From positions 1 through 23,527 of IMG/VR virus record IMGVR_UViG_3300009428_001469: DNA of 23,527 nucleotides. One strand, given 5' to 3'. Shown one piece after another: positions 1-22,392 of this stretch. The translations under genes and the position numbers were made by a program. Numbering within the stretch: position 1 is the stretch's first letter; each line of letters begins with the position of its first letter. The stretch comes from a virus. The notes below the pieces were generated by a model. It ran no database searches, was not told the DNA's origin, and saw only the letters and a program-made list of their open reading frames with translations.

Positions 1-1
1 C

Positions 2-981: not shown

Positions 982-1430
982 TTAAAGTACGACTAATTGA
1001 GTTTGAAGATATAGCAACGCTCGCTGAGATGGGTAAGTATATGCACGCCGAAGGTGTGTTCAACAAATCCGACTACGACGTAAAAAAAGTTACAACAATG
1101 CTAACAGATTATTACGCTGATGGAGATAAGCTATCTCTAGTCGCGGTAAACGAAGATGGCATAGTCGGCTGGTTTCTAGCGAGCCTATCAGCACATTACT
1201 TTGGCGCGACGAAGCTCGCCGTCGAGCAGTGTATGTATATTCACCCATTACATCGCGGGTCATCAGCGGCAACACGTTTTATGAAAAAGTTTGAACATTG
1301 GGCGCGGTATATGGAAGCTGAAGCGATGTTGTTTATGCCCTGTAATAATGGCGTGGATGACCGATGGGACAAGTTCGCAAAACGATTTGGATACACTCAA
1401 ACTGGCTATATTTTCACGAGGAATGTTTAG
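978..1430 (+). CDS. GNAT-family acetyltransferase, second of a tandem pair
   Basis: A 150-aa paralogue of the gene just upstream. The two share the pattern [FY]FG, then A-x-E-Q, then MYIxPxHRG, then a helix and K-R-[LF]-G-Y near the end, all at matching spacing. The acetyl-CoA loop is again non-canonical (RGSSAA, residues 93-98). A GNAT fold acting on an unknown amine is the best call. The start codon overlaps the preceding stop (ATGA at 978-981), and the TAG stop abuts the next ATG with no gap, so four genes appear translationally coupled. Identity between the two copies is limited to core motifs, so the duplication is old and the copies may act on different substrates or form a heterodimer. 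Confidence 0.82.
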   Translation: MIKVRLIEFEDIATLAEMGKYMHAEGVFNKSDYDVKKVTTMLTDYYADGDKLSLVAVNEDGIVGWFLASLSAHYFGATKLAVEQCMYIHPLHRGSSAATRFMKKFEHWARYMEAEAMLFMPCNNGVDDRWDKFAKRFGYTQTGYIFTRNV

Positions 1431-3056: not shown

Positions 3057-3069
3057 TAGGAGAAGACTT

Positions 3070-3753
3070 ATGGGTGGATTTGGCGGCGGCGGCGGAGCAC
3101 CAGCGGTTACAGCAACACCAGCGGTTACACCAACACCAGCGACGACAGGCCCGACTGTGCCAGACGGCAGCATGGCTCAGACGTTTATCACCAATAACTA
3201 CGGTGAAACGCCTGACATTCAGGCCGACTATGTTCGCAAGGAAGGCGCGGCGGCAATTCCAGGTATGGGAGAAGACGACTTAGCTGCTGTGCTTGGCGGC
3301 GATGGCATGAACCAGATGTTCCAACCCTTTGCAGAACAGCGTGGCGGTGCATCATTTCTAGGCGACCAGTACGAACAGGCCGAAGGCTTGCCCAGTATGG
3401 ACGCAGTAGTGTCGAACCAAAACCCGCAAGCTACAGGCGAAGGCGGTCAGGGATTTGGCAACCGAATTATCGGTGGCGAAGCAGGGGTTGAAGCTGGCGC
3501 TGTACCAGATGGCAGCATGGAGCAGACTGACGTAGTCGGCACAGAAATGGCTTCCGACGTAGCATCGACTAACGAGCAGCCATTGCCCGGACAGGCGCTA
3601 AACAACGACGTAGATTACGAAATGGCGATGGCGGGCGGCGGTCAGCAGGCAGGGTTTATGCCCAATTCACGTCGGGCGGCTGGTCTTGGAACGGGCCAGA
3701 TGTCCCGTGGCTTGATGTCACCGCGTACAGGCTTTGGCCGGAAAATGGGCTAG
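3070..3753 (+). CDS. Low-complexity structural-operon protein, 227 aa
   Basis: No family recognised. The ATG has a strong ribosome binding site (AGGAG, 3058-3062, 7-base spacing). The N-terminus is a poly-Gly run (residues 2-9) followed by an Ala/Pro/Thr/Val repeat (10-28). The phrase VPDGSMxQT occurs twice (residues 30-38 and 145-153), suggesting an internal duplication. The rest is acidic, Gly/Gln/Met-rich and probably flexible, ending in a basic tail (SRRAAGLG at 200-207, then SRG, SPRTGFGRKMG). The tail resembles those of the products ending at 529 and 3056. Lying between large virion-type genes in a tight operon, it is most likely a small virion or assembly protein; nothing indicates an enzyme. 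Confidence 0.7.
   Translation: MGGFGGGGGAPAVTATPAVTPTPATTGPTVPDGSMAQTFITNNYGETPDIQADYVRKEGAAAIPGMGEDDLAAVLGGDGMNQMFQPFAEQRGGASFLGDQYEQAEGLPSMDAVVSNQNPQATGEGGQGFGNRIIGGEAGVEAGAVPDGSMEQTDVVGTEMASDVASTNEQPLPGQALNNDVDYEMAMAGGGQQAGFMPNSRRAAGLGTGQMSRGLMSPRTGFGRKMG
3098..3141 (+). repeat. 18-bp tandem repeat, about 2.4 copies
   Basis: Two 18-base copies, 3098-3115 and 3116-3133, differ at a single base (CAGCAA versus CACCAA at the 3' end), and a third partial copy continues to 3141. The repeat is in frame and encodes the Pro-Ala-Val-Thr stretch near the N-terminus of the 227-aa protein, so copy-number change would lengthen a flexible linker without a frameshift. Confidence 0.85.
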
Positions 3754-3762
3754 GAGTAAGGC

Positions 3763-4680
3763 ATGTTCGGAGAAACAATTGGTAATGTCGTTGGCAGCAA
3801 TTACGACGCTGGCAGCAAGGGTCGGTACAAGGCGCAAGCCTACGGCTCACTGTTTGACATGGGTTATTCCTACCAGCAGTCACGAAAAGACGAAGCCGCT
3901 TTAGATGAGATAACTGCGCTGCAAAGACAGATTGCAGAGGCGCAAATGTCTGCCGCAGCGCAATCGTCTGCCGACGAAGCGGCGTACCGTGCAAGGATCA
4001 TTGAGCGCATCAACGCAATGGACACGTCGCTCAAGTCGTCGATGGCGAAGCTAGGCGCGAGAACGCAAGTCGATGGCGACGACATCGCCGCAAACTACAA
4101 GACGTTTCGCGGGCAGATGATGGACGACTACTATGAAACCGTTGAAATGGTAGGCTCTCAAAACAAAGCCTCAGCCATACGTCGAGGCATGGACCGCTCA
4201 ACGCAATTCACTGACACGCAGGCAGAGCTAATTAAAAAGTCTACAAGTCAGTTAGGCGCAATAGACCAGAGTGCTTTCGACGCAGCGATCTCGCGCAGCA
4301 AAGGCTTTGCTGATGCGATGAACTCTGGACGATCTGAAACCTTCTCCGAGCTTACAAGTGTACTTGGCAAAGCCGCCGAGATGGAAGGCCAGTTCGTTAC
4401 GAACAATGCGCCTAACCAAATGAAGAACGCTTCATCCGCGCTGGATGGGTTTGGCACAAATGCTTACAATAATTTCCAAGATAGCCAAAGCGTTATGGGT
4501 GACACTATGGCGAGCTTTAACGAAAAGCTGGCACCTAACTTCTCCTATGGGTTTGGCGATAAAGGTGTCTACACGGACTTGGCTGGCGGTAAGGACGCTC
4601 GTCGCGACGCCGCGCTTAGGGCCGCGATTGGTGGCGACAAATATGATCAAATAGTATCAGACACGAATGAGGTTGTTTAA
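3763..4680 (+). CDS. Internal virion (ejection) protein, T7 gp14-like by position
   Basis: A 305-aa, largely helical protein. After a short Gly/Tyr-rich N-terminus comes a charged Ala/Gln coiled-coil stretch (about residues 40-98, with ITALQRQIAEAQ and RARIIERINAMD heptad-like patterns), then the segment GSQNKASAIRRGMDRSTQF (131-149) and further amphipathic helices. In T7-like phages three consecutive internal virion proteins (gp14, gp15, gp16) are ejected and build a conduit across the envelope. This gene is the first and smallest of three consecutive genes of increasing size, which matches that order. Sequence similarity to gp14 itself is not evident by eye. A ribosome binding site (AGGAG, 3752-3756) precedes the ATG, and the TAA overlaps the next ATG by one base. 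Confidence 0.66.
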   Translation: MFGETIGNVVGSNYDAGSKGRYKAQAYGSLFDMGYSYQQSRKDEAALDEITALQRQIAEAQMSAAAQSSADEAAYRARIIERINAMDTSLKSSMAKLGARTQVDGDDIAANYKTFRGQMMDDYYETVEMVGSQNKASAIRRGMDRSTQFTDTQAELIKKSTSQLGAIDQSAFDAAISRSKGFADAMNSGRSETFSELTSVLGKAAEMEGQFVTNNAPNQMKNASSALDGFGTNAYNNFQDSQSVMGDTMASFNEKLAPNFSYGFGDKGVYTDLAGGKDARRDAALRAAIGGDKYDQIVSDTNEVV

Positions 4681-7643
4681 TGCGTATAGGTTCAGCTTTT
4701 CTCAAGGCACGCGACAATAAAGAAGACCGCGTACAGAAACGTCGCAGTGACAACATGGCGGCGTTCAACAGCTATGTGAAGACGCAGTCTGAGCTTGGCG
4801 TAGAAGCGTCAGTTCAAGACTTAGAGAAGATGAAGCAGAACCTTGCGGGCGGTGATTTCTTTTACGGAAAGCAGCTACCGTCATCGAACGTCATCGAAGA
4901 AACGTCATCTCGACTTGGGGCTATCAAAGCCGACAAAGAAGCAGAAGAAGCAAGGACGGTTCTGCAAAACGCGAACACAAAAGCGGATGGCATGCGAGCC
5001 TCTATGGCAGGCTTTTTAGGCGCTAATCCTGACAACGCAGCGTGGTGGAACGCTAATAGTCAATCCGGCCCCTTAAAGGCCGTTGTTGATATGTATGGTG
5101 ACACGCAGGCTAAAGTATATCTGAAAAACTTAAATGACCGAGGGGTCGCTGAGTACATACGAGACTTTGACCTGAGTAGCTACAAGACAATTGATGGCAT
5201 TGAAGCCGCTGTCTCAGCCGCCCCAGCGTGGCAGCAGCCAAAGATCAAGGCTTATTTGAAAAGCAATTTGCAGCAATGGACTAATACTGAACGCAACAAT
5301 GGGAAAAACGCCGCTCAAACCGCCCTGCCAGGAATTGTGAAAAACGCGCTCACCGAAGATGCCGCTGTCACAGCCGCACTTGCAGCGGGCAAACTTGGCA
5401 TGTCAGACGACGCGACCACAAATTATGCGTGGCGCGACGCCATTACCCAACAAGCAAAAGCGGCGTTCGCCTTAAGGCTGAAGCCAAGATTTACGAAAGC
5501 GCAAGGCATCGCGTCTGGTCAGAATGATAAGAATTTGTTTACGAACAAGGCAGCTCGCGATTTGGCGGTTAATAAAATACTGGCAGATGCAGAAATTTTA
5601 GATGACGGTAGCAAAGAAGTAGACGATCTTAAGACGCAGCTAAATAACACCCTCAAGACCAACGCATCGGTTGCTAATACAGCTTTCGAAGACGCAACAA
5701 TTACAGCATTATCAGCGAAAATTGCTCTACTACCCCCCTCCACGCTAGACCACTTAACCGCCGAAGATGACCCGCAAAAAAAGGTGATGGAACTTATAAC
5801 AAGTATGGGCTTAGACCTTACTGGCACGCGCTGGGTTGATCCGAATGGCCAGCCCACTCCGTTCTTCAAGATAATTCAAAATAAAGTCTTGGCACAGATA
5901 ACGCCCAAAATTGCACGCGGCCTTGTGCTGGCAAACGACGTAGACGAAGCCAACATAGAATTAGAAATTTTCGGTGGCGTTGCGAATGGAAAGGGCCAGT
6001 CTGCGGCAATCGCAGAATACATAAACATGCCACAAGACGCCGACCGTATGGGCAAGCTATTCACGGAAGTGAACCGCATACGTGTAGAGAATGATAAGCC
6101 TCCGTTTAAGTCGATAGAACTTGCCCAAGGTGACGAGGTAGACGACGGATGGACCGCAGTCTGGAAACAGCTTTCAGATCGGATTGGTTTGTCTCAAACC
6201 ACTCTCTACAACACACGACGGGACGCAGCCGTCAAAACCGCCGACGCCCAAATATTAGAAGCACAGGAAACCGCTCAAGGATTGATCGGCAATTTGATAA
6301 ATGACAACGATAAGGAAAGCCCCGAATTTAAGGCTTTGAACTACGTCGTGGGGAAGTTTTTTCTACCCCAAGGCGAACAAGAGTTGAGCGCAATATACCA
6401 ACAAGTTATGGATGTCATCCGAACTGAGGGCTTAACTTTCGATGATGTGGATGAAGGTGTAGAAGCTAGATACCGAATAAGCCAAGTTGTTAAAAGTTTA
6501 AACGTACTGACTAAGGCCAGTGGGCAGGCTAGATTTCGTGCAGCACTATTGAGAAAATCCGTAGACGGCATTGTGAAGCCCGGAAGCTCTCTAACAGCTT
6601 GGGCCACAACGAACATAGACGGCTTGGACGACAAACAAATGAGGTTCACGCTCGACATGGAGGCGCTGACCCTCGACGCTGACCCCTTAATCATAGCGCA
6701 AAAGCAGAAATTATTAGATAAAGCGATAAAGAATTGGGACGCTCTTAAGATAGCCTTGGCCGCAAGCGCAGAGACACCACAGGTGGGCGGTGTGTTAGCT
6801 AACCCTGAGAAGCATGCAGCGGAGCTTACCCAAGTTTATAAGGATATTGACGAAAAGATTAAAACGCTCAAAAACACAAAGCCGACGGGAACGCCGACGT
6901 TCTTTAACCGCGACCCAGCGTCGAACCGTTTCGAGGTAAGAGAAGGTTTAGGGGACAGTGCAGAACAAATCGGTTTCAAAATGTTCACACTGTATAAGCG
7001 CGACTTAGAAGGCGGGTTTGTAATCGACACGGCGGCTACTTTGGCGAAGTACCCAAATGGCGCACCCGCAGCGGTCGGACCAGACGGCGGTCCAACCACC
7101 AGCGCCCAGCCACCTATCATATCGCCGGAAGACAACGCCGACCCCGTGCGGTTCGCCTCACCACTAGCCGCCGAGCCACTTTATAGCAATATTGTAGACC
7201 CTTATCGCACACTCGACGGCAAAAGTGCGCCCCGATTTATGAACCCTACTGGCGCAGCCACATTGAAAACGGTGAAGGTTAATGCGAAATTCTCAACTGG
7301 CAGGGTGCGTGCGTTAATAAACACCAAGTTCGAAACTGTTTCGGATGAAGATAAGCCAGTCGTTTCAGCTATTTTGAGGAGCGAGGCTTTTGCAAGATAT
7401 CTCACTAAGAACGATGGTAGTAAGGGGGCCATGTTCGGTGTGTGGGATGGGTACAATGGCAATAGCCTAGAAACCATGTTTGCTAACCCAAGACAGTTCC
7501 TAGAAAATATGGCTAATCTTGACCTAGAGAGCGTGGCAAAGGGGGACAGGTATGAAGCAAATCAACTATGGAAACCCACCGCAGATGAAGCAAAAAAACT
7601 ATTAGCGGCTATCTCAGCCTACGAGGAAGATATGTTCGACTAG
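4680..7643 (+). CDS. Internal virion (ejection) protein, T7 gp15-like by position
   Basis: A 987-aa soluble, helix-rich protein with no obvious membrane segment or signal peptide. Charged helical stretches dominate the first 760 residues (for example IKADKEAEEARTVLQNANTK). They are followed by a Pro/Gly-rich linker (about 788-822) and a C-terminal domain with Trp/Tyr-rich patches (GAMFGVWDGYNGNS). Length and place between a gp14-like gene and the giant gene fit the second ejectosome protein of T7-like phages (T7 gp15 is about 750 aa). No lytic transglycosylase or peptidase motif is seen. The ATG overlaps the previous stop (TAATG), with GAGG at 4669-4672 as ribosome binding site. The stop is TAG, followed by the only sizeable gap in the rightward operon. 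Confidence 0.66.
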   Translation: MRIGSAFLKARDNKEDRVQKRRSDNMAAFNSYVKTQSELGVEASVQDLEKMKQNLAGGDFFYGKQLPSSNVIEETSSRLGAIKADKEAEEARTVLQNANTKADGMRASMAGFLGANPDNAAWWNANSQSGPLKAVVDMYGDTQAKVYLKNLNDRGVAEYIRDFDLSSYKTIDGIEAAVSAAPAWQQPKIKAYLKSNLQQWTNTERNNGKNAAQTALPGIVKNALTEDAAVTAALAAGKLGMSDDATTNYAWRDAITQQAKAAFALRLKPRFTKAQGIASGQNDKNLFTNKAARDLAVNKILADAEILDDGSKEVDDLKTQLNNTLKTNASVANTAFEDATITALSAKIALLPPSTLDHLTAEDDPQKKVMELITSMGLDLTGTRWVDPNGQPTPFFKIIQNKVLAQITPKIARGLVLANDVDEANIELEIFGGVANGKGQSAAIAEYINMPQDADRMGKLFTEVNRIRVENDKPPFKSIELAQGDEVDDGWTAVWKQLSDRIGLSQTTLYNTRRDAAVKTADAQILEAQETAQGLIGNLINDNDKESPEFKALNYVVGKFFLPQGEQELSAIYQQVMDVIRTEGLTFDDVDEGVEARYRISQVVKSLNVLTKASGQARFRAALLRKSVDGIVKPGSSLTAWATTNIDGLDDKQMRFTLDMEALTLDADPLIIAQKQKLLDKAIKNWDALKIALAASAETPQVGGVLANPEKHAAELTQVYKDIDEKIKTLKNTKPTGTPTFFNRDPASNRFEVREGLGDSAEQIGFKMFTLYKRDLEGGFVIDTAATLAKYPNGAPAAVGPDGGPTTSAQPPIISPEDNADPVRFASPLAAEPLYSNIVDPYRTLDGKSAPRFMNPTGAATLKTVKVNAKFSTGRVRALINTKFETVSDEDKPVVSAILRSEAFARYLTKNDGSKGAMFGVWDGYNGNSLETMFANPRQFLENMANLDLESVAKGDRYEANQLWKPTADEAKKLLAAISAYEEDMFD

Positions 7644-7644
7644 C

Positions 7645-7673
7645 GGGGTCTGAAGGGGTACGACTTAGACCCC
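7645..7673 (+). promoter_or_regulatory. Stem-loop after the gp15-like gene
   Basis: GGGGTCT (7645-7651) pairs perfectly with AGACCCC (7667-7673). The stem extends by AAG/CTT (7653-7655 with 7664-7666) past a single bulged G at 7652, giving ten base pairs around an 8-base loop. It begins two bases after the TAG stop. No T run follows, so a simple intrinsic terminator is unlikely. An RNA-processing site or a mRNA-stabilising hairpin is more plausible. Confidence 0.6.
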
Positions 7674-7688
7674 TCACGACGATATGAT

Positions 7689-7710
7689 GTTTCCAACGTA
7701 GCGCGGAAAC
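7689..7710 (+). promoter_or_regulatory. Second stem-loop just upstream of the giant gene's RBS
   Basis: GTTTCC (7689-7694) and GGAAAC (7705-7710) form a perfect 6-bp stem with a 10-base loop. It ends directly before the ribosome binding site (GGAG, 7712-7715) of the GTG-initiated giant gene. It could affect initiation on the longest message of the operon. This is a fold read by eye. Confidence 0.45.
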
Positions 7711-7711
7711 T

Positions 7712-7715
7712 GGAG
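7712..7715 (+). promoter_or_regulatory. Ribosome binding site fixing the GTG start of the giant gene
   Basis: GGAG lies nine bases before the GTG at 7725. The next in-frame ATG (7758) would drop eleven residues and lacks a comparable site, so GTG is the better start. Confidence 0.65.
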
Positions 7716-7724
7716 TACCGTCTT

Positions 7725-10700
7725 GTGAGCAATGAAATTGACGCCATCCTTAGCAATATGGATGATGACGTTTCTGACAACGGGTCAGGAATGGGAACTA
7801 ACAGCGGGCTTGGGTACGCAGCCAACTTAAACAAAGCAAACGCCAAGAATGTTTTTGCGCGGCAAGACTTTGTTCAGGACATTTACGACTACTACTACGA
7901 AAGGGACGGAAAGTCTTTTAGTGGTATCGACGAAGCAAAAGATTACTTCATGGAAGACCGCCGCTGGCGCAACATGAACCTCGTATCCATTGGCCGCGAC
8001 TTAGTTGACGCTAATAATCAGTCTGATCAGCAGGGCAAAAGACTTGCACGACTACAGACTACCTTCGACGCCATGCCAAACTTCTACGAGGATGGTGGGG
8101 ATGGCTGGAAAGGTTTTGCTACAAACGCTTTGGCAGTAGTGGCAGACCCAATAAATCTGATTGGTTTCGGTTCTGGTGGTGTGGCCGCAAGAGCGGCAGC
8201 GGCGGGCGTAATAGCAGGCGGCGGTAGGCAAGTCTTGCAGCAGTCGGGCATGGCGGCGGTGCGAGGCACAGCATCAAGGGAAGCCTTGAAGGCGGGCATA
8301 TTCAAAGGTGCATTGTACGAGGGCGGCGTGTCTGGTTTGGCCGAGGGCGTGCTAGACGTAGGGATACAAGCACGTAACACAGAGTTAGGATTACAAGACG
8401 GCTACAGCTTGAAGCAAGGCGCTGTTGCGGTAGCTGGCGGCACGGTAATAGGCGGGGCTATGGGTGGTGCGCTTGGTGGTTTAGCCGCCAAGGTACGAAA
8501 CCCCTTTTCAGACGGCATGAGCCAAACAGACCGTGGCATCCAAGACGGCAGAAACAGGGTAATGGACGCCGAGATGGACGCCGCAAACGCGGATAACATC
8601 GCACTAGATGAGGCAAACGCAAACGCAGACACGGGCGAAACAGCCCAAGAGAGTTTCACTCGGCGCATTGGCGAGACACGGGCAGCGGTCAATCAAAGAA
8701 CGAACCTAAGTCGTGCGTCTGCGGCAGAAGGCGAACGATCAGCCAACGAACAGCGTACAGAGACAGGCCCATATGACACGCAAGACACGGATGGCGTCAA
8801 TGCAGGCCAACTGACCGAAGACGACACTCTCGACTTAGCGGCTCAGAATGTTCAAAGCATGGATGAGTTGGCTCGCAAAGCGGAGCTAGACGCAACAACG
8901 GAAACCGACTTAAACAAACGTAACGCTCTTAATGAACGTGCGGTGAAGCTACGTCGGGCGTCCGAGGCTCTGCATGGCAAGCTGGAAAGGTATCTCAGCC
9001 CCGACGAGGTCACTAGCACTGAGCTAGTTCAAGAGATACTGCAAATTACAGACCAGAGCGATCTGCTAATAAAAATTGGCAACGACCCTGATGCGCCTCA
9101 ACCGACAGGTAATACGGGTGGCGGTACTGCTAGAAACCTGACTGGTGCAGAGGCCGACGCCGACGCCGACGTAGCTAACAATGCTGGCGCAAGACCAGGG
9201 GATGGCGGCAATCTAACTGGCGATGAGGCCGGAGATTTCAGCGACCCTCAAAACTTTACAGGTGGCGATAATCGCATGGGGCCAAATCGGCCTGAAACCG
9301 CGCTGGTTCCTGAAACTGGGCCTGAGTTATCTCAACCTGACCAAGAGTTTAAAGATCGACTTGAGGAAAGTAAGGTTATCGACACAAGGCTTGAAACAGA
9401 CGTTGCAAGTCTCAATGAAGAATTAGTCGGTGAACGGCAGAAGTTTGAGACTGACAGTCCCCTCATTGGCGAAGAACCAGATATCACGGAAATACTAAAA
9501 GCTGGTGACATTGCCGAAGTCGGTGAAGCCGCCGACGCCATGAAAGTACGTCTGTCTGGTGTGGCGCAGCAGAATGGCGTGGACATATCAGGCATACCAG
9601 ACATGGAAAACTCTGGTGGCAAGGTTATTGTCGAGCGACTTAACGCGAAGCGTGCAGAATTACGAAGTGTCCAGCAAGCCAGAATAACTGAACTGGAAGC
9701 TAAGATCGACCAGACTGAGTTACGGCGTGCTGACAACAGTAGGATAAGAGACACTGAAAAAGTAGATTACGAAAAGGCAGTTGTGGAGCGGGACGCCCGA
9801 CTAGCCCAAGAAGAATTAGACAGGGAAGTTACACGGACCCTTGAGAAGCAGCGCAAAGAAGCAGTAGTAGAGCAAGCCGCAGCCGACGCACGCAATCCGT
9901 CTTTAGTCTTTGAAACGCTCAACAGTAAGTCTGATACGGTTGAATACCTAAAGTCGATAGGTGTTAGCGAAGAAGATATGAAGCCGCTTACTAATCTCGA
10001 CGCTCGGACCAACAGGCCAGCGCGACAAGAAGCATTTGTCAAAATCTGGAACGAACGAATGGGCCAAGAGTTGATGGTTCAGTACGCCACTTCCCGCATG
10101 GGTGATAATGGCCCTATCGACAGTTTCTACAACACTGACGTTTTGCCTGATAGTACCATGACCTTTTTTGAGGCCATTCTAGTCGAGCAGGGTTTTGATC
10201 CAGACTTACGCGCAGCAGCGTTAGCCTCTCACAACAAGATATTGGATAACCCCAAAGACCTTAACGACAAAGTCTTGGAATTACATACTTCACCTGAACA
10301 TATAAATAGCCCCGAACTTTTCTTTGAGGCAGCAAAAGAACGGTTTGGCAATGCGTATGCCGAGAGGCTCGCCGTGCATCTTCACGATGACATTATTAAC
10401 GCCCCAATCGCCAAACTCGATAGCTACACTTACAAGCAAGATGGGATAAACGCGACGTTGCCGCCAAGGGACATGGCCAGCCCGTCTGGCGAGCCGCTTT
10501 ACGGTATGAAGGTAGCGGGCGCAGAAAGAACACTGCCCTCTGGCAACCTCTCGACGGAGCCGAACGCTAACCGAGATGGGCGCGTAAAAGAAATCGAAGC
10601 GGTTATGTCCGACGCTATAAACAAAGAGCTTATGGCTTTGAAAGAGCGTGCAAGAAAGACTGCGCTCTTGGCTGGCATAACCGAAGAACAGGCAGACGCC

Positions 10701-13700
10701 GCCGCCACAAGAATTTACTACGACAAGATAGACAAGATGGTGGCTGACCGCGAAGGGTTCTTGGAGCGCAACGATGCGTTCCTTGATGGCCAGATGAAAA
10801 CAGTCGCTAGTAGCATTTTAGAGATGAAGTCGGCGCGAGATGCTTACAACAAGACCCGTTCCGACTTGCCTAAAAAGTTTAATAGCAACCTTACTTCTGA
10901 GGAAGTTATTGTCCAAGAGCTTGATAGCAATGGCGAGTTAGTCGATCTGGATAAGATTAGATACACCTTAACACAGAGCGCGAAGCCGACCATTGAAGAA
11001 AGTGCTCTTTTGAACGCGCACTTCAAAAGCCTTGAGGCTCTAAGGGAGACTAAGCGTCGTTACTCAAGCACGGCTAAGTACAACGTCGTTATGAAAAACA
11101 ATAATGTTCTCCCTATCGGCCAGCTTATTATGGAAGCTGAGAACGAAATACTGACGTTAAAAAGCAAGAAGCAAACCAGCATAAAAATTATCGCGCCTAA
11201 AGATCGTTCGTCGAAAGACATCAGCGTGGGTTTTGACGCAGGCTTGGCAGACTTCATAGGTCGATCACAAAACCGAAAGGGTGACGGCACATACGAGGTG
11301 AAAAACAAAGTTCAGGCTATCCTTAAAGGCTCTAACATCAATGGGTACGAGGGAAAGTTGTTCCGCAGAGGGCAGAAACTTGCTGACAATGGCCGATACG
11401 AGCAACGAACTGCGACCGCAAATGCAATCGACGAAATGCAAGCCTCTCGCATAGCGGCAGGCACGCAGCAGAGAGTGAGAGATGAAATAGAGGCCGAGCG
11501 TAATAAGCCACGGGTCACAGAATTAGACTTTCATATTAAAAAGATCGACGCTCTCAATTCTAAAATCTATCAGGTCACTAAGAACAGAGGGTCTAACAAG
11601 CCAATCAAGTATGATGGCAAAATAGTAACGATTGAAGAACTAACCGACTTGCGTAACTCAGCTATGAGCAAGGCTAGAGCAGAAGTTGTAAACTCATTTG
11701 ACATGGGTCCGAGTGGAAGCGTCCTGACTGGCCTAAAAGCCGAGAGAGCACGACTAACGAGCAACACGCAAAAGGGCATGCTTGGCAACCAAGCCGAGGA
11801 GTACAACAAAAACCGTGCTCGCAACATCATGCTCAGTACATGGAACCAGATCAGGCGTGAACTGAACGATCCAAAAACGTCCGATGATCGGGTGCGACTA
11901 CTGCAAACAATGACCCGCGACTTGAAACGTATGGGCAATGTTCAAAAGCAGAACGGCAAGCCTTACGATGAGAAGCTGGCAGAGAGAATTGCCACGTTCG
12001 CAACGAAGAAGGAAGCCGCTGGTCGCAGGGCCGAGGCCGCTTACAAACGTGATGTCGAGGCTGGCATGTACGACTATGAGAACAGCAGTTACGGTGAAGG
12101 CGCAGACCGCTTTGAACCCGAAGACTTGGGCGTAGCAGATGCTTACGCCGAACAATTAGCCCGACGCGATATGGGCGAATATAAGGTTGATGAAAGCGCG
12201 ACTGAGAATATGTTGTTTGGCGACAACTTACCGCCCCAGTTAAAAGACGAGGTTTTACAAGCCGCCAACCAGAAAAAAGTAGCCGAGGTAGCACGCCTAG
12301 ACGGCCTAGCAGAGTACACTTTACTCTCAGCAAGGGCGCACCGAGGGGAGATTTCAGGAGATGAGCTGGTCGCTGCAATAGGCCGACTTAACCAAGAGAT
12401 CAAACGCCGAGCAGAGGCAGCGCCAGAAGAAGTAACAGTCGCGGGGCGCAAGCACGCAATAGAAGTAGCGTCTACGACTAAGGGTGTGGAAGTAGATATA
12501 AACAACGACATCTCTTACTCTCGACCAGAAGGCAGCAAGATCGTCACAATAAAAATTGACGACGTAAAGCTGGGAGAAGCTATAGAAAAACCCGATGGCG
12601 GCTTTTCTATCATGCACCCCGATGGCCAGCGAATAAATTTTAAAAAATTTGGGCCGCTCAAGAAGTCTCTTGTTCAAATATTTAACAGGCAGATTGATGG
12701 CATCCAAGAAAAGTCTGGCAACACGCGCTTTTCAGTTAAGGAAAATGCGAAGGGCATCCCGCACGTACAGAAAGACCCCTCTCAGACTGCGACTTACAAG
12801 ACTGATCCACCTATCCCAGTCGCAAAAAACGTAGCCGCACCAGACGTAAACATAAAGCCAGAAGCCGACGCTAATGATCCGACCACTTGGAGCGGCTTAG
12901 ACTTTGAAGATATGCCCGCTGGCCGTAAGCTGGCGATACAGTTCTTAGGCGATGGCCCGTTAGTGAAGCGGCAAGTCGTGCGTATGGATAACGAGAAATC
13001 CCCTCAATCAATTAGGGAAATGCTTGGGACAAGTGGCGACGTGCCATACGTCATTGGCCATGTGCAGTCTGGTGGCCCGAAGGCAGCAAGCCAAGAAACT
13101 TTCTTCCCGATGGACCCAGAGAGCATCTTTATCGACCAGCGTGGCGTTGAGGTTGTTGGGCTAGACGTGCCAGAAGGCAAGCGTGGGTTGTCTGGAAATT
13201 CACAGAGCCGACGTAAGCGTGAAAACAGGGCGTCTGACTTAAGCAAGGTCCAAGGTAACAAGCTCAAGATAGCAGAGGACGATCAAGCGTTCTTTGCAGA
13301 AATGGGCGCAGAGCTAAACACGGTAAACGATTTAGTCCTCCACATCGAAAAGCTAGAGACTGCCGATTGGCAGGGCGAAATACGATCCTTAAAGGGGTTA
13401 AAGAAGTACGCGACCGCACGTTCAGCAGCGGCACGCATACTCAAGGCAAACGTACCAAACGGCATTAAGAAGCCTACGACTACCACAGCCAAGGCGAACG
13501 AAACTCTACGGACTATGTTCGATGGCTACCCACAGGCAGAAGTCCAAACAGCGGTAGACTTTATTGAAAGAGTGGCGCTTTTGAACGGTGGGGTTGCGCC
13601 GAAAATGCGAGCAGGCGATAGCCCGCTATTCGACGTAAACACAAATGAGATCCAAATCGACGTAGCGAGCGGTTCAAAGACTGGTGAAGTAAGAAGCACC

Positions 13701-16700
13701 CCTATGTCTATGGAGCTAGTGCATGAGATGGGCCACTGGGTCTATGACAACCTTCTCGACGAAGGTGATCGTCAAAAGTTCTGGTCGTCTATGGAAAAAT
13801 ACTACGATGATAACGGCACCCTTAACTTCAAAGACTTAGAGCGTGGCTTGGTAGACCCGAAGTTTATCAGCAATTCCGCGTCTAACCCGCAAGAGTTTTT
13901 CGCCAACCAGTTTCTAGGGTTTGCGATGCAGACTGACGCGGTTCGCGTGCCGGGTTCCGCTTTGCACCAAGTCTTTGCGAAAGTAAGCAAGATTGGCGCT
14001 GATCTTTTGAACTGGTTGCTAGGTCGTGAGACATTTCAGATCGACAGCGACTTGTATCAAATCTTCCAGAAGCACATGCCGCAAGATGTAATCGACCCTG
14101 AGACTAATTTGCCCACAGCGCAGCCTTCTATGTTCGGACACCTAGAAGCACTTGGCCGTGAACACGGTAATGATGGCTCAATCACCGTTGGTTCGGGCAT
14201 GATGAAGCCAGCAGAATTTGCGGGCAAACAAATGCGCGTCTTAGACACACGTATCCGCGAGCTTCACGCAGCAAAACGCGCCTACCCCACAGGTCTTGGT
14301 GACAGCATGTCTCTGGCAATCGACTTAGAGCGCATAGCCAAGGAGACTTACGGTGAATATGGCGGGGCAAAGGGCCAGCCGTTCCATAAGAAAATCCCAG
14401 GAGCACCTGAGAGCGGTAAAGCTCGGATAATGGCGCTCGACGAAACCGTTTCACGCGAGCCAATCATTCAAGCCCAGTACGCAATCCATACATTCCTCAG
14501 AAAACTACGTGCAGAGGAAGCTGACCACAAATTCTCTACCATGCTAGGCGGCATGTCTACCAAAGACAAAGCAGCACAAGAAGCGATTATCTCTGAGATG
14601 ACGGGTATGGGGGAACGAAACCAGCAGGCGATGTACGAGCGGCTGCTGACAGATAGCAAGTCGGCCTACGAAGGTCTTGATGAAGCTATCGTCGATCACT
14701 TGCACCGCCTGTCTACTGACTTGCAGATCGCGCTACAGGGAGCGGTCAAGGAATACACGGGGATGTTCCAGAGAACTATGCCGTTCACGGAACGCAAGCG
14801 CATAGCGATAGACGAATACACAGGTGCGGCATACGTCGAGACAGATAGCCCGAAGACAGGTCGGTACAAAAAAGCGGCTCGCAAACTAGCGCGGCAAGAG
14901 CTTGCACTGTCTCAGTCTGTAAACGAAGTCGTGAGCAAGATGTCTAGCTCTGGGATTGATTGGCGCACGGTGTCTGAGAAGGATATTATCTCAGCAGCAC
15001 AAGGCAGAAAAAAAGAACTAATCACAATTTCCGAACAAAGACATGAACTTGCTAGGGCGGTTTCCGCAGAGGGGGCAGAAGACTTAGGCGCGAAAGCCAC
15101 AGCCTTTAACCAACTCAAGGCCAGCGAGACACACAAGTCTTTTGACTTGCCTGCTATCTTAAACCGTCTGGAAAACGGCAGCGATACACAGCGAAGACTT
15201 CTTGAAATCTTTAGAAGTGATCGCCAAGACCATAAAAACCATATGTTGAAGATTATTTCTGAGACAGACCTTGAGGACACCCACGACTTAATCATAGCTG
15301 GCCGTCATTATGGTGCGGAACTTCCAGATGCACCAAGCGCCGTTTCAACTGAGCCTATGTCTGGTGCGGTAAGCCAGTTCACAAGCTCTATCAGCGTGAG
15401 GGGTAAGGACAAAAGCCAGCAAGCGATGGCGCAAGACTTGTTCACAAAGATGACAAGAATGATAAAGGGCTTTGAAGACCCCAGCGTCAAGATTGATGAC
15501 GATATCTTTATGACCGCATACGACGTGGCGATGATAAGGAACGATCCAAACGCGCTGGACGCTGACGACATAGACATGGCCTCACCAGTTGGCGAAGCAT
15601 GGGATGATGCGCGAGATGCGATGCGTGACATGGCTGACAACGTGATAGCGATCAACAAGCTACGCGAAAAGTTCCCGTCCGAGCTAAGTGGCACTATGGA
15701 GCAATCCGCTAAGTACGATGCTGAGATTATGAAGTACCGTAAGCCTTTGTTCGACTATCTGTATGACTTCACTTACGCACTACAGACAGGAACAGACCAG
15801 CGGGCGATCAAAGGATTGGACGCAGCAGGCGTAGAGCAAATGAAGGCAAAGTTTGCACGCATGACTACAATAGATTTCACCACGACTGATGCGTTTACAG
15901 TTAAAGGTGGGTCTACCGAGGCTAACGCTTCACTCAGAAAGATGATCGACGAAGCCGTGCAGATATTGGACGGCATCCTGTTCCAGCCACAATCATCAGC
16001 AGACCGATTGATGGAAACCCGACGCATGGGTACTGCCGACTTGCACAGGGCAGAGCGTGACAAGCACGCTATCTTGGGAATGGTTAGAGGTGCTGACGGC
16101 CAAGCATTAGTACACCCATCGGTCGCGAGTAAGTATGCAGATGCCTACCTAGACACTATCGGTGACAGACTTGACGGCTCTGCAAGAGACTTGACTGGCG
16201 CTGGCCCAAAGGCTGACTTAAAAAATCGCCTGAAATTCAACGTGTCGTCTGACCAAAATGTTCGGGGTGTTACATCCACACCGAATGGTCAGTACGGAGA
16301 TGGCGTTTATCTCAAGAGCATTAAGCACGTAGATAAAGGTTTCGACGTAGTAGAAGTTAAGCGGGCAGCGGATGAGGCCGCAAGTTCTTCCAGACTTAAC
16401 TCCAACCAGAAGAAAGAGTTAGATTTCTCGGTCAACTCAACGATTTGGTTGCGTGAAGCTATCAGAGATTTAAACAATAAACTCGATACATCCTTTGATG
16501 AGAAGCAGCTTTTAGAGAGGCTGTTAAAAATGGATCGAACTCACTGGGGTGTAATCGACGACATAACAAATGGCCGTATGAAGGACCAGAAAGTAGCGCC
16601 CGTATTTGCAAGGGTACGCGCACCGCTCGACCTCACAAGCAACACTCAGTATTCTTTGAATGGCGAGACAGACGGGACGATGCGCCATTTCATAATGAAG

Positions 16701-19700
16701 CTGGCCGAGGGTAGAGTGCTAGATGCAGAGGGCGTGCAGGCGGCAGTGGACGCATTTACCGCACCGATGTCAGGCCGCGAAATGTATCAAGTGTTTACGA
16801 ACAACTCGAATGGCTTGCTTCACAAGTATGGCAAGTCGAACAATGGTCCCGCCTCAAGACTAGCGTTCAACCGCATGCTGAAAGACATGGGCTACGACGG
16901 CCTGCACACCGACGAAGGCGACGTAGTCTTTAACCCGGAGATGGTTAAAGAGGCCAATAGCTTTAAACCCGAAGACAACTTACTCCATGATGGAGAGGGT
17001 TTTGGCGGGGACATGAAGCTGACGGGCCAAGTCGTCGAGGAGATGATGGTTCAGAACGGTCGTCTTGGAAACCCAACCTTTGTTGGTGTCGCACGCGAAG
17101 CTCGACGCATGGGTATGCCGCAGGCGATACTCGACGTAACTGAAAAGGTATTCAAGAAGCGCAGTATCCAGCCCGAAGACGTAGAGAAAATATCCAAATG
17201 GTCTACGGTCAAAAACTTCTTCCGCGAAAACTCAAGTCTATTCAGGCAGCTTGGAGCCAATTGGTTTGGTGATCAGATACAGCCCATGAGCGGTGTTGGT
17301 ACTTTTGAAAAGCACGACGCACTGCTGGCCCGCAGAATGTCTCCGATCATTAGAAAGCTAAATGCTCTCCCCGATGGCGGTGGAGCATTTAAGCGGTGGA
17401 ACCGCCGTAACCGTGGCCTTGCTATGGGTGCGCTGGACGCTGGACAACCCGCCAGCCACGAACGCATCATCAATGCGTTGCGCCGTGGCCGTGGTGCGGT
17501 TCAAGCTCTGGGTCTTGCGGAGCGAGAGATCGCTATGGACATAGCCAATGGCTTTAACGATGAGCTAAACCAGATGAAGGCTCTCGGAATAAAAGTGGGC
17601 GATGCACGTAAACTCGGTTCAGACTTTTATGTCCCACAAGTTTACGACAGGGAAAATATCCTATCAAACCCTAGCCGCTTTAGAGAAGGCTTAGTCGAAA
17701 TACTGAAGCGCGAGCAGAACAGACCTGACTTCGATAGCCAGAGAATGACTGAGGATGAGCTTGGCAAGATCGCTGACCTCATGGCTCATAGGCTCACCAA
17801 AGGCTTTGACCCTTCGACCGACGAAGCAATACAGCAAGCACTAGGATCACCGTTTGCGGCTCGCGTCATCAACATTAAGCCAGGTGACTACGACTTTATG
17901 GATGAGTTTCTTGTGCAAGACTTGCAAGGTATCTTGGCTAAATACTACGACCGCACAATCCGCAAGCGCGTGCTGACGGAGCAGTTTGGTGTGAACGGTC
18001 ATGGCTTTAACGCTTATGTAGAGACAGCCCAAGATGGCCTCGACGCTGGGGTCCAGATACTCAACAGTAGATATAGCCCGACTAACGCTGTTACGACTGA
18101 AAGCGGCATGGCGATGGTTGACGATCTGCAAATACCATCCTTACGTCTAACCCCCGATCAGTCAAAAACTTTAGTCGTGAAGCTAAAGCGCCTACTCGAC
18201 GACCCAGAGACTAACGTCAACAACAAGCAGACCGCGATCAATATGATAATCGAAATGGGTGGGCCAGATGCTTACAACAATGTGCAGTTTAAAAAGCGCG
18301 TTGAGGCAGTGGTGAACGCCGCCGTAGACTTTGCTGGCCGTAAGCCTTCCAGTACGACAGTAGCCAAGATGCGTCAGATGATGGACGTGTTGAACAAGAA
18401 GCCGATTGATGGTGGGTCAGGTCAGGAAGCACGCTACAAGGTTAGCCGTGCGCTCAAGTCTTTCACCAGCGTATCTCTTTTGGGCTTCACGACATTTACT
18501 TCTCTACCCGATATTGCTCTGCCCCTAGTTCGCAGCGGCAACATGAGAGCCTTCGCAAAAACATGGGCGAAGTATAGCACTGACCCGTCCTACCGAGCAG
18601 CAGCCAAGAACATCGGCGTAGGCATAGACAATCTTATGCACGAACGAATGGTTCAGATGGCAGGCGACGGCAACCAAAAGTTCGCCAACGCCTTCTTTAA
18701 CGCGACGTTGCTTACGCCTTGGACAAACACCATGCGTGAAGTCGCGTCCTTAGTCGGGTTCGAGAGCTTCAAGAGCGAGATTGACCGGGCTGTTCGACTA
18801 GCCAGCAAAGGCAAGAGGGGCAGCAAGTCGTATGCGACGGCTGTTAGGTATCTGGAACGCTATGGCTTGACGGGAGACAACGCCCCTCACGACTTCTTAG
18901 CGGATGGCAGCTTTAGAATAGACATGCTCCCCAAGGACGAGGGCATTGAGATGCAAGTTCAAATGGCGATGCTTAGGTTTACCAACGAAGCGATCTTTAC
19001 GCCTAATCCGAACGACGTGCCGATGTGGGCGCAGACCCCTTGGGGCAGCATGATGTTCCAACTCAAGTCTTTCCCACTAATGATGATGAAGCTACAGGGC
19101 TACATTGTTGATGAGTTTAAATTGGGCAACGTCGCACCCGCGTTCTACATGCTTACAGCAGGCGTCGGGGCTGGTTCCCTATCGGTTGGCGTAAAAGACT
19201 ATGTGTCTTTGCGGGGCGGGGATGACGAGCGTTCAGCGGAGTTTAGGAAGCGCAAGCTCACAGAAAGCAGAGCGGGCATAGCCGAGATACTTGGCGTAAA
19301 AGAAGGCGACGACCTAGACGCCGCGCTGGGGTGGTACTTGGATGGACTGCTCGCGGTTGGCGGCATGGGCCTAATCGGTGAAATGCTCTACAACACAAGC
19401 GCACAACTCGACAATGGCAAGTATGGTTTTGTACGCACAATGTCGGCAGCGTTTGGGCCACAAGTAGGCACCGCAGAACTAGCGTTCAATGCGGCAGCAG
19501 GCGCAGGGCAAGTGATCAGCAACAAGATAAACGACGAGGATAAAAACGATAAGATCAGAAACACGTTGCGCGATATGTTCGGACGATTACCTGTGGTGGG
19601 TCGTATCGCTGGTGGCCCAACAGGCAGGGAAACCTTCGTCGATGCAGTCGGTGGAGAGGCCAAGAAGGCAGGCCGACCAGCCAAAGGAAAACTTGGCGAC

Positions 19701-19745
19701 AGTAAGTTTGGCGGCGTGGAGTTCGGAGGAGCGTTCGACAAATGA
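7725..19745 (+). CDS. Giant 4006-aa virion/ejection protein with metallopeptidase and ADP-ribosyltransferase-like domains
   Basis: One uninterrupted 12-kb frame with a GTG start. Visible order: an N-terminal domain with aromatic DIYDYYYERDG; hydrophobic Gly/Ala segments at about residues 130-170 and 232-257; helical, acidic, coiled-coil-rich sequence with a linker holding NLTG/NLTG/NFTG (471, 496, 510); further helical and beta-rich regions; and a zincin site HEMGH (2000-2004) with a candidate third ligand E2057 in NPQEFFANQF. Next come more helices and an ADP-ribosyltransferase-like region (about 2830-3085: GVTSTPNGQYGDGVYL, ending MGYDGLHTDEGDVVFNP). The C-terminal third contains LLGFTTFTSLPDIALPLV (about 3586-3602), MFQLKSFPLMMMKLQGYIV (from about 3777) and hydrophobic stretches near 3805-3823 and 3870-3888. 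Size, position and Gly-rich membrane-like ends fit a gp16-like or DarB-like protein packaged in the virion and delivered into the cell. Domains of these two types are known from phage polyvalent proteins. The ART catalytic triad could not be placed with confidence. No T7 gp16 transglycosylase motif or N4-type RNA polymerase motif was seen. Confidence 0.85.
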   Translation: MSNEIDAILSNMDDDVSDNGSGMGTNSGLGYAANLNKANAKNVFARQDFVQDIYDYYYERDGKSFSGIDEAKDYFMEDRRWRNMNLVSIGRDLVDANNQSDQQGKRLARLQTTFDAMPNFYEDGGDGWKGFATNALAVVADPINLIGFGSGGVAARAAAAGVIAGGGRQVLQQSGMAAVRGTASREALKAGIFKGALYEGGVSGLAEGVLDVGIQARNTELGLQDGYSLKQGAVAVAGGTVIGGAMGGALGGLAAKVRNPFSDGMSQTDRGIQDGRNRVMDAEMDAANADNIALDEANANADTGETAQESFTRRIGETRAAVNQRTNLSRASAAEGERSANEQRTETGPYDTQDTDGVNAGQLTEDDTLDLAAQNVQSMDELARKAELDATTETDLNKRNALNERAVKLRRASEALHGKLERYLSPDEVTSTELVQEILQITDQSDLLIKIGNDPDAPQPTGNTGGGTARNLTGAEADADADVANNAGARPGDGGNLTGDEAGDFSDPQNFTGGDNRMGPNRPETALVPETGPELSQPDQEFKDRLEESKVIDTRLETDVASLNEELVGERQKFETDSPLIGEEPDITEILKAGDIAEVGEAADAMKVRLSGVAQQNGVDISGIPDMENSGGKVIVERLNAKRAELRSVQQARITELEAKIDQTELRRADNSRIRDTEKVDYEKAVVERDARLAQEELDREVTRTLEKQRKEAVVEQAAADARNPSLVFETLNSKSDTVEYLKSIGVSEEDMKPLTNLDARTNRPARQEAFVKIWNERMGQELMVQYATSRMGDNGPIDSFYNTDVLPDSTMTFFEAILVEQGFDPDLRAAALASHNKILDNPKDLNDKVLELHTSPEHINSPELFFEAAKERFGNAYAERLAVHLHDDIINAPIAKLDSYTYKQDGINATLPPRDMASPSGEPLYGMKVAGAERTLPSGNLSTEPNANRDGRVKEIEAVMSDAINKELMALKERARKTALLAGITEEQADAAATRIYYDKIDKMVADREGFLERNDAFLDGQMKTVASSILEMKSARDAYNKTRSDLPKKFNSNLTSEEVIVQELDSNGELVDLDKIRYTLTQSAKPTIEESALLNAHFKSLEALRETKRRYSSTAKYNVVMKNNNVLPIGQLIMEAENEILTLKSKKQTSIKIIAPKDRSSKDISVGFDAGLADFIGRSQNRKGDGTYEVKNKVQAILKGSNINGYEGKLFRRGQKLADNGRYEQRTATANAIDEMQASRIAAGTQQRVRDEIEAERNKPRVTELDFHIKKIDALNSKIYQVTKNRGSNKPIKYDGKIVTIEELTDLRNSAMSKARAEVVNSFDMGPSGSVLTGLKAERARLTSNTQKGMLGNQAEEYNKNRARNIMLSTWNQIRRELNDPKTSDDRVRLLQTMTRDLKRMGNVQKQNGKPYDEKLAERIATFATKKEAAGRRAEAAYKRDVEAGMYDYENSSYGEGADRFEPEDLGVADAYAEQLARRDMGEYKVDESATENMLFGDNLPPQLKDEVLQAANQKKVAEVARLDGLAEYTLLSARAHRGEISGDELVAAIGRLNQEIKRRAEAAPEEVTVAGRKHAIEVASTTKGVEVDINNDISYSRPEGSKIVTIKIDDVKLGEAIEKPDGGFSIMHPDGQRINFKKFGPLKKSLVQIFNRQIDGIQEKSGNTRFSVKENAKGIPHVQKDPSQTATYKTDPPIPVAKNVAAPDVNIKPEADANDPTTWSGLDFEDMPAGRKLAIQFLGDGPLVKRQVVRMDNEKSPQSIREMLGTSGDVPYVIGHVQSGGPKAASQETFFPMDPESIFIDQRGVEVVGLDVPEGKRGLSGNSQSRRKRENRASDLSKVQGNKLKIAEDDQAFFAEMGAELNTVNDLVLHIEKLETADWQGEIRSLKGLKKYATARSAAARILKANVPNGIKKPTTTTAKANETLRTMFDGYPQAEVQTAVDFIERVALLNGGVAPKMRAGDSPLFDVNTNEIQIDVASGSKTGEVRSTPMSMELVHEMGHWVYDNLLDEGDRQKFWSSMEKYYDDNGTLNFKDLERGLVDPKFISNSASNPQEFFANQFLGFAMQTDAVRVPGSALHQVFAKVSKIGADLLNWLLGRETFQIDSDLYQIFQKHMPQDVIDPETNLPTAQPSMFGHLEALGREHGNDGSITVGSGMMKPAEFAGKQMRVLDTRIRELHAAKRAYPTGLGDSMSLAIDLERIAKETYGEYGGAKGQPFHKKIPGAPESGKARIMALDETVSREPIIQAQYAIHTFLRKLRAEEADHKFSTMLGGMSTKDKAAQEAIISEMTGMGERNQQAMYERLLTDSKSAYEGLDEAIVDHLHRLSTDLQIALQGAVKEYTGMFQRTMPFTERKRIAIDEYTGAAYVETDSPKTGRYKKAARKLARQELALSQSVNEVVSKMSSSGIDWRTVSEKDIISAAQGRKKELITISEQRHELARAVSAEGAEDLGAKATAFNQLKASETHKSFDLPAILNRLENGSDTQRRLLEIFRSDRQDHKNHMLKIISETDLEDTHDLIIAGRHYGAELPDAPSAVSTEPMSGAVSQFTSSISVRGKDKSQQAMAQDLFTKMTRMIKGFEDPSVKIDDDIFMTAYDVAMIRNDPNALDADDIDMASPVGEAWDDARDAMRDMADNVIAINKLREKFPSELSGTMEQSAKYDAEIMKYRKPLFDYLYDFTYALQTGTDQRAIKGLDAAGVEQMKAKFARMTTIDFTTTDAFTVKGGSTEANASLRKMIDEAVQILDGILFQPQSSADRLMETRRMGTADLHRAERDKHAILGMVRGADGQALVHPSVASKYADAYLDTIGDRLDGSARDLTGAGPKADLKNRLKFNVSSDQNVRGVTSTPNGQYGDGVYLKSIKHVDKGFDVVEVKRAADEAASSSRLNSNQKKELDFSVNSTIWLREAIRDLNNKLDTSFDEKQLLERLLKMDRTHWGVIDDITNGRMKDQKVAPVFARVRAPLDLTSNTQYSLNGETDGTMRHFIMKLAEGRVLDAEGVQAAVDAFTAPMSGREMYQVFTNNSNGLLHKYGKSNNGPASRLAFNRMLKDMGYDGLHTDEGDVVFNPEMVKEANSFKPEDNLLHDGEGFGGDMKLTGQVVEEMMVQNGRLGNPTFVGVAREARRMGMPQAILDVTEKVFKKRSIQPEDVEKISKWSTVKNFFRENSSLFRQLGANWFGDQIQPMSGVGTFEKHDALLARRMSPIIRKLNALPDGGGAFKRWNRRNRGLAMGALDAGQPASHERIINALRRGRGAVQALGLAEREIAMDIANGFNDELNQMKALGIKVGDARKLGSDFYVPQVYDRENILSNPSRFREGLVEILKREQNRPDFDSQRMTEDELGKIADLMAHRLTKGFDPSTDEAIQQALGSPFAARVINIKPGDYDFMDEFLVQDLQGILAKYYDRTIRKRVLTEQFGVNGHGFNAYVETAQDGLDAGVQILNSRYSPTNAVTTESGMAMVDDLQIPSLRLTPDQSKTLVVKLKRLLDDPETNVNNKQTAINMIIEMGGPDAYNNVQFKKRVEAVVNAAVDFAGRKPSSTTVAKMRQMMDVLNKKPIDGGSGQEARYKVSRALKSFTSVSLLGFTTFTSLPDIALPLVRSGNMRAFAKTWAKYSTDPSYRAAAKNIGVGIDNLMHERMVQMAGDGNQKFANAFFNATLLTPWTNTMREVASLVGFESFKSEIDRAVRLASKGKRGSKSYATAVRYLERYGLTGDNAPHDFLADGSFRIDMLPKDEGIEMQVQMAMLRFTNEAIFTPNPNDVPMWAQTPWGSMMFQLKSFPLMMMKLQGYIVDEFKLGNVAPAFYMLTAGVGAGSLSVGVKDYVSLRGGDDERSAEFRKRKLTESRAGIAEILGVKEGDDLDAALGWYLDGLLAVGGMGLIGEMLYNTSAQLDNGKYGFVRTMSAAFGPQVGTAELAFNAAAGAGQVISNKINDEDKNDKIRNTLRDMFGRLPVVGRIAGGPTGRETFVDAVGGEAKKAGRPAKGKLGDSKFGGVEFGGAFDK
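9153..9170 (+). repeat. Three tandem GCCGAC hexamers
   Basis: Perfect GCCGAC triplication within the giant gene, encoding Ala-Asp-Ala-Asp-Ala-Asp in a flexible linker between helical regions. It is in frame, so copy changes would be tolerated. Confidence 0.8.
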
Positions 19746-21638: not shown

Positions 21639-22178
21639 TCATTTTATGTGACCACGCGCAAGAAAGTCTAGCGTTCTAAACAGTCTCTCGTCCAAAGTAT
21701 TGTTGACCTCAACGTCTACGTCGCACGTCAATCCCTCACTACTGTGGACTTCGCCTGTTCCTGTCGAGGGTTGGCCCTTCACGGACAGACGGATTATCAT
21801 CCCGCCCATTCTCCGCACCCGCTACGCTTCGTTTTGAAAGCGACAGTCGTCGGTCACGACTGGATGCGTCGGCAACAATCGCTTGGCGGCGTGTTCCCAC
21901 ACGGTTCCCCATAGGTTCTTGCTTATTAAGTCTCGACCCCATTCCGTTCCCAATGTCTGCATTGCCCATCTCGGCGTCCTTCCATCCAAAATATCACAGG
22001 GCTGCTCTTTGAGCGCACCCTCAAGGTGTTCGTCGGTCAAGCCCATCTCTTTGAGCATGCGCTTAAGCGGTCCAGCAAACTTGATGTTAGTATAACCGTA
22101 ATTCTTACATAAGTATTCCGCACACATCGACTTGCCGCTGCCGATTGGCCCGACGAAAGCTAAGAGACTAGGCTTCAT
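21639..22178 (-). pseudogene. Deoxynucleoside monophosphate kinase interrupted by an in-frame TAG
   Basis: Phosphorylates dNMPs to dNDPs for phage DNA synthesis; P-loop kinase fold. The leftward frame starts at ATG 22178-22176 with Walker A GPIGSGKS (residues 10-17), then FAGPLKRMLKEMGL (34-47) and a nucleotide-binding-type segment RTPRWAMQTLGTEWGRD (67-83). It reaches TDDCRFQNEA, the family's D-x-R-F-x-N-E motif, and then meets TAG at 21824-21822 after 118 codons. The same frame stays open for 60 more codons to TGA (21641-21639) and reads RMGGMIIRLSVKG, then EVHSSEGL, then VNNTLDERLFRTLDFL. This is exactly what the C-terminal lobe of these kinases looks like. One base change (CAG to TAG) would explain the stop. 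Without readthrough the 118-aa product lacks the last third. Several genes here end in TAG, so TAG is a normal stop codon in this genome. Confidence 0.82.
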
Positions 22179-22392
22179 CGTCGATCACTTCTTTTGAAAG
22201 GTCAGCGATCTCTCGTCGAATGTATTTCAGTTTGTCATACGCCTTCCGACGATCAGACAATTCTGTATCCTCGTCGGTCGGGCGGTCGTTGCCATAATTT
22301 ATCATCCACTCTAAGTCAGTGATCCGCGTCTGGATGCTTTCAGCCATGTGGCGTAACTCGACGATCTGTTTTTTCTTAGCATTTAATTTCAT
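22168..22392 (-). CDS. 74-aa coiled-coil protein of unknown function
   Basis: A short, highly charged, helical protein (MKLNAKKKQIVELRHMAESI at the start, KLKYIRREIADLSKEVIDDEA at the end) with two coiled-coil segments split by a polar loop (NYGNDRPTDEDTE, about residues 33-45). No family is recognised. Its ATG overlaps the nuclease stop (ATGA at 22392-22389 on the minus strand) and has GAGG upstream. Its TAG stop lies 11 bases inside the kinase gene, so the three leftward genes are translationally coupled. A small partner or regulator of the nuclease or kinase is possible but not shown. Confidence 0.6.
   Translation of the reverse strand: MKLNAKKKQIVELRHMAESIQTRITDLEWMINYGNDRPTDEDTELSDRRKAYDKLKYIRREIADLSKEVIDDEA

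Follow-up and report, generated by a model that had tools for sequence, protein, structure and literature searches.

A giant cysteine-free protein, probably ejected, joins a gp16-type C-terminal core to a zincin and an inert-looking ART-like domain in a putative CRP-810-type phage

The window analysed here, a stretch of 23,527 nucleotides (positions 1 to 23,527 of the IMG/VR virus record IMGVR_UViG_3300009428_001469), carries a single open reading frame of 12 kb encoding a protein of 4006 amino acids (Table 1). In independent contigs sharing only 31-62% identity, the same frame stays open for 4002-4114 aa, indicating that the gene is real. A preliminary description made from the sequence had listed this frame, the HEMGH motif (residues 2000-2004), E2057 (within QEFFANQF), the motif MGYDGLHTDEGDVVFNP (residues 3055-3071) and hydrophobic segments at both ends of the protein, and we found all of them where it had placed them. 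Gly/Ala-rich hydrophobic stretches start at residues 135, 232, 3803 and 3866, and the number of HExxH motifs expected by chance from the composition of the protein is 0.04.

Table 1 Features of the giant gene and its upstream neighbours, in nucleotide positions of the window.
Feature	Residues	Position	Strand	Basis or remark
227-aa Cys-free protein, same block		3070..3753	+	
305-aa Cys-free protein, same block		3763..4680	+	
987-aa Cys-free protein, candidate companion ejection protein		4680..7643	+	no PHROG match
5' leader able to fold over ribosome-binding site and GTG start		7675..7729	+	weak in the window itself
Gene of the giant ejection/polyvalent protein (probable)	1-4006	7725..19745	+	GTG start; intact frame in relatives
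Conserved N-terminal domain, Gly/Ala hydrophobic segments	40-260	7842..8504	+	profile matches in relatives
Variable linker	261-1739	8505..12941	+	no recognisable domain, RNA polymerase or otherwise
Conserved segment preceding the zincin	1740-1849	12942..13271	+	11 of 50 residues invariant at 1751-1800
Zincin-1 domain	1850-2130	13272..14114	+	model pLDDT 86.3, pTM 0.86; alignment
HEMGH; predicted zinc ligands H2000 and H2004, base E2001	2000-2004	13722..13736	+	
Predicted third zinc ligand	E2057	13893..13895	+	invariant E of E[FY]FANQF
Region of the second HExxH...EEWF domain of many relatives	about 2600-2770	15522..16034	+	motif lost here
ART-PolyVal-like domain, active site degenerate	2780-3130	16062..17114	+	PF18760 in relatives; model; fold matches
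Asn where HGT has its catalytic His	N2839	16239..16241	+	
Conserved Tyr of YGxGxY	Y2862	16308..16310	+	
Place of the catalytic Glu	E3064	16914..16916	+	ungapped matching of EGDVVF to ETVVLF
Conserved C-terminal domain	3140-4006	17142..19742	+	74-79% identity in close clade
C-terminal core related to T7 gp16 family	3555-3800	18387..19124	+	phrog_342 match

Upstream of the start codon, the leader (7643-7725) and its counterpart in relatives contain a conserved GGAAACTGGAG(T/A)ACC directly before the start, which is often GTG. In many relatives it can base-pair with a segment further upstream, covering the ribosome-binding site, with a Fisher p of 1e-8 over 36 leaders, a value uncorrected for relatedness; 12 of these leaders were individually below 0.05, the stem of the window itself had a p value of 0.53, and an Rfam search of the leader returned no match. 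Elsewhere in the window, two adjoining acetyltransferase-like genes (526-1430, phrog_1249) lie beside structural genes, at a place where Roseobacter phage CRP-810 has one GNAT gene, and deoxynucleoside monophosphate kinase-like and Cas4-type exonuclease-like genes lie at 21822-23174 on the minus strand, opposite to the giant gene.

Comparison of the window with annotated phage records at the DNA level gave no match. Protein searches found phage CRP-810 (E 6e-119); phages of Vibrio, Aeromonas and Escherichia gave weaker matches, limited to the C-terminus, among their internal virion or structural proteins. IMG/VR yielded full-length relatives, with 109 places found by the zincin motif and 399 by the C-terminal core in one scan, and a prophage search found three short contigs only. 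The first zincin retrieval was biased by its patterns (HExxHW and EFFANQF), and the resulting 53-sequence alignment had been partly chosen by zincin motifs, so relatives were fetched anew through the C-terminus alone. The non-redundant relatives number 77, and their intact open frames reach 4121 aa. These relatives have in common the order of a conserved N-terminus, a variable linker, a zincin, an ART-PolyVal-type domain and a conserved C-terminus; by profiles, the order N-terminus-zincin-ART-C-terminus was found in nearly all sufficiently long proteins, two of which had no recognisable ART match.

Four longer contigs carrying the gene have terminase (56-64% identity), portal (67-70%) and integrase in common with CRP-810, a comparison made on the contigs of relatives, the window and its 31-kb twin contig being too short for these genes, and a primase-polymerase is present in one relative contig (L008). 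The common genes together with the primase-polymerase suggest a CRP-810-type phage that is not T7-like in its replication genes, and the earlier label "T7-like" is therefore inaccurate. The window most likely derives from a temperate marine phage of the CRP-810 type, a family described in PMC11288001. In the CRP-810 record (OR671924; PMC11288001), the same Cys-free protein appears in the same order, split into three frames as against the one frame of the window: gp36 is the N-terminus, annotated as internal virion protein D, gp35 holds the zincins and the ART domain, and gp34 is the C-terminus. The break between gp35 and gp34, which lies between the ART and C-terminal domains (L010, around 14050-14120), is an exact 31-bp tandem duplication that is absent from a near relative (L043) 91-94% identical to CRP-810 there.

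The two ends of the protein are well conserved, with the N-terminal domain showing 75-81% identity within the close clade and 58% to a more distant relative (L028), while mean identity in the linker is mostly 14-40% per 50 residues. An RNA polymerase hidden in the linker was rejected for want of any supported Pfam or PDB-profile match; a profile of the linker region found no N4-type RNA polymerase in the PDB at E ≤ 1, and the PF00940 search was run without a working control. Pfam E3_binding matched the linker of three aligned relatives (best 1.1e-06). Pfam and PHROG searches found no lytic transglycosylase anywhere in the window protein, its N-terminal domain included. The C-terminal core matched phrog_342 (E 1.3e-13, profile positions 826-1070 of 1235), the family of internal virion protein with endolysin domain of which T7 gp16 is a full-length member, and also matched several virion-structural PHROGs. 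The phrog_342 match was obtained with the 246-aa core and was missed by the 867-aa C-terminal segment, and direct comparison with T7 gp16 alone was marginal (E 0.0055), so the link to gp16 rests on the profile.

The giant gene contains no in-frame Cys codon among its 4006 codons, as against 111 and 115 TGY triplets in the two other frames, an absence that the preliminary description had overlooked. At the background rate of CRP-810, a protein of this length would contain about 16 Cys, and the 77 relatives contain 6 Cys in 233,813 residues. T7 gp15, T7 gp16 and the N4 virion RNA polymerase (vRNAP) likewise have no Cys, and Cys absence has been tied to injection (PMC3715699, PMC2784036, PMC3915230); some coat and fibre proteins also contain none, and low Cys content is not exclusive to ejected proteins. 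Searches with the window's own copies of the three consecutive upstream proteins (3070-7643) found no family matches. These proteins of 227, 305 and 987 aa are Cys-free too, which suggests that they and the giant protein form an ejection block. This Cys-free gene block precedes the lysis genes, and the giant protein is encoded among virion genes. The gp16-family core, the Cys-free sequence and the gene order all support the earlier proposal of a virion or ejection-type protein, which is probably ejected into the host with the DNA. The same three observations and the virion-structural PHROG matches speak against a late intracellular protein in place of a virion protein, and we regard that explanation as highly improbable.

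Structure prediction of the zincin-1 domain yielded a confident model with strands ahead of the HExxH helix. Zincins dominated the top Foldseek matches, which comprised a carboxypeptidase, a lethal-factor-type zincin and Pro-Pro endopeptidases, all of them weak (best E only 0.11). The zincin fold that the preliminary description expected structure prediction to return is suggested, at low match strength, by the nature of these matches. Pfam M91 and lethal-factor names matched weakly around HExxH and membership was not accepted; an iterated zincin profile strayed into neighbouring regions, and the original match bounds were kept. Both His and the Glu of HExxH, as well as the Glu of E[FY]FANQF, were invariant in the 53 aligned sequences, and HExxH was intact in 65/65 relatives of the combined non-redundant set that includes the C-terminus-based retrieval. 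The zinc metallopeptidase first proposed for this locus is supported as a zincin-type site, and because HExxH was intact in all 65 relatives, zincin-1 is probably an active metallopeptidase.

As for the role of this domain, a purely structural zinc-binding fold that does not cleave proteins but keeps the chain in place within the virion, or regulates a neighbour, would have a precedent in N4 vRNAP, which keeps HExxH in its C1 subdomain, whose C-terminal domain inhibits the polymerase, and which is packaged unprocessed (Iyer et al. 2017, PMC5512222), a fact that also counts against self-processing by the zincin. Since the general-base Glu is strictly conserved besides the ligands, we consider this structural role improbable. 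Somewhat less so, although still doubtful, is an effector protease directed at host proteins after entry: an effector role has been suggested for peptidases of polyvalent proteins (Iyer et al. 2017, PMC5512222) and the weak fold matches include effector-type zincins, but zincin-1, unlike the ART and second zincin sites, was never lost in 65 relatives, which internal housekeeping fits better. Because it is the sole catalytic site never lost, action of zincin-1 on the phage's own proteins, either the giant or its companions, is the reading we prefer, at just short of even odds.

The second domain named in the preliminary description, an ADP-ribosyltransferase (ART), is supported as a fold by the model of the window protein. 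PF18760 (ART-PolyVal) matched 22 of the 41 aligned rows (best 7.3e-10) and gave no match to the window protein itself. The model (pLDDT 86.7) found as its best solved match in Foldseek the cyanophage A4 pre-ejectosome chain PDB 9k3a_B (E 0.029, probability 0.91); the best BFVD match had an E of 0.0021, and a PolyVal ADP-ribosyltransferase was among the matches to viral models. The chain 9k3a_B may correspond to gp27 of Anabaena phage A-4L, a protein of about 1700 aa with HGT and GxGTYF motifs in which, unlike the window protein, no HExxH was found. The motifs of relatives read [FY]HGTP ... YGPGxY ... HExxVLF. In the window clade, FNVS (N2839) stands in for the first and YGDGVY (Y2862) preserves the second, and the place of E3064 varies to Gln, Val or Ile among clade members. 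The catalytic H-Y-E set is N-Y-E in the window, with Asn for His throughout the clade. ADP-ribosylation by this domain is unlikely in the window clade because the catalytic His is Asn and the Glu is not kept. The domain is nevertheless not simply decaying, since its identity (52-68%) exceeds that of the linker (36-48%).

The preliminary description had gone further, proposing that a live zincin and a live ART are both injected as effectors, perhaps for anti-defence or host takeover. The intact zincin-1 site, the retained ART Tyr, the presence of E3064 in the window and the fair conservation of the ART domain agree with this proposal, but the clade-wide Asn, the variable Glu position and the missing Pfam match of the window protein make it very unlikely. 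What stands of the ART claim is a polyvalent-type fold, seen by Pfam in relatives and by a confident model that matches a pre-ejectosome chain, albeit with weak Foldseek E values; the working enzyme does not, and as judged from its residues the protein would deliver probably one live enzyme, the zincin, rather than two.

Many relatives, CRP-810 included, carry a further HExGH ... EEWF motif between zincin-1 and the ART domain, about 150 residues before the latter, which the window clade does not have; in one relative (L033) this second HExxH...EEWF domain lies at about aa 2545, and 31 of 70 scored relatives were positive. With zincin-2 and ART His states scored by scripted motif patterns, these 70 proteins divided into 30 with both, 29 with neither, 10 with the ART His only and 1 with zincin-2 only (L171), and most relatives with an intact ART His thus also carry zincin-2. 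On a C-terminal tree, which cannot tell loss from gain, zincin-1 changed 0 times, zincin-2 at least 6 times and the ART His at least 4 times. A test of joint ART and zincin-2 loss on 6 independent pairs (2.8 the same way, 0 opposed) was not significant. The window was placed in a clade with neither the ART His nor the zincin-2 site, unlike CRP-810, in which both are intact. Tentatively, and with odds below even, we suggest that the giant ejected by CRP-810-type phages carries three enzymes, of which zincin-1 would be the indispensable protease of a gp16-type machine, and zincin-2 and ART an optional effector module that has been switched off several times, the window being one such branch.

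Several known systems resemble this protein in part. T7 gp16 (internal virion protein D, phrog_342) has the related C-terminal core, is encoded by the last gene of the ejection block and is Cys-free, as is the window protein; it has 1318 aa and an N-terminal transglycosylase, whereas the window protein has 4006 aa, no transglycosylase found, and a zincin and an ART-like domain added. The N4 vRNAP (gp50, Schitoviridae) is an ejected, Cys-free protein of 3500 aa with an HExxH zincin in its C-terminal part, and its traits of more than 3000 aa, absence of Cys and an HExxH domain recur in the window protein, which differs in that no RNA polymerase domain was found. Direct homology to N4 vRNAP was rejected, as profiles gave no match. 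Among polyvalent proteins (Iyer et al. 2017, PMC5512222) are giant phage proteins, encoded next to virion genes, in which a zincin-like peptidase and a PolyVal ART occur together; that survey cites a podovirus vRNAP with peptidase and ART and connected the peptidase domain of N4 vRNAP with the superfamily of our zincin fold matches. The window protein likewise combines at least two unrelated domains in one chain, zincin and ART-PolyVal-type, one of which looks catalytic, and differs from those cases in a gp16-type C-terminus without a polymerase and an ART that looks inactive in the clade. Giant proteins that phages inject have been described for N4 and in computational surveys, but this family joins a gp16-type C-terminus to polyvalent enzymes. 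The protein is a probable variant of the known injected polyvalent proteins, with probably one live enzyme in the window clade.

Taken together, we propose, with a probability of roughly 0.7, that the window encodes a giant ejection (internal virion) polyvalent protein of a CRP-810-type phage in which zincin-1 is probably active and the ART fold is kept and inert. The protein would be produced late, incorporated into the head and expelled through a short tail, either before the DNA or together with it and probably in an unfolded state; a chain with no Cys at all would be suited to crossing the oxidising periplasm. Structural roles serving delivery would fall to the conserved N- and C-terminal domains, of which the gp16-type C-terminal one probably works at the inner membrane or within the ejection channel. 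Zincin-1 may cut the giant protein itself or its companions, either inside the head or while ejection proceeds, and the ART-like domain, its fold kept and its catalytic residues gone, may have a structural or binding role here. Many relatives would deliver an active-looking ART and a second zincin too, both sites having presumably been lost in the window clade.

The protein family is widespread in marine phages, judging by the C-terminal matches of the single IMG/VR scan (399), and the copy of the isolate CRP-810 had been annotated as three mostly unnamed pieces. If the suggested division between an indispensable protease and an optional effector module is true, protease action would be a required step of genome delivery and the ART/zincin-2 pair would be host-directed; the contrast of a never-lost protease site with repeatedly lost effector sites would then split machinery from weaponry within one chain.
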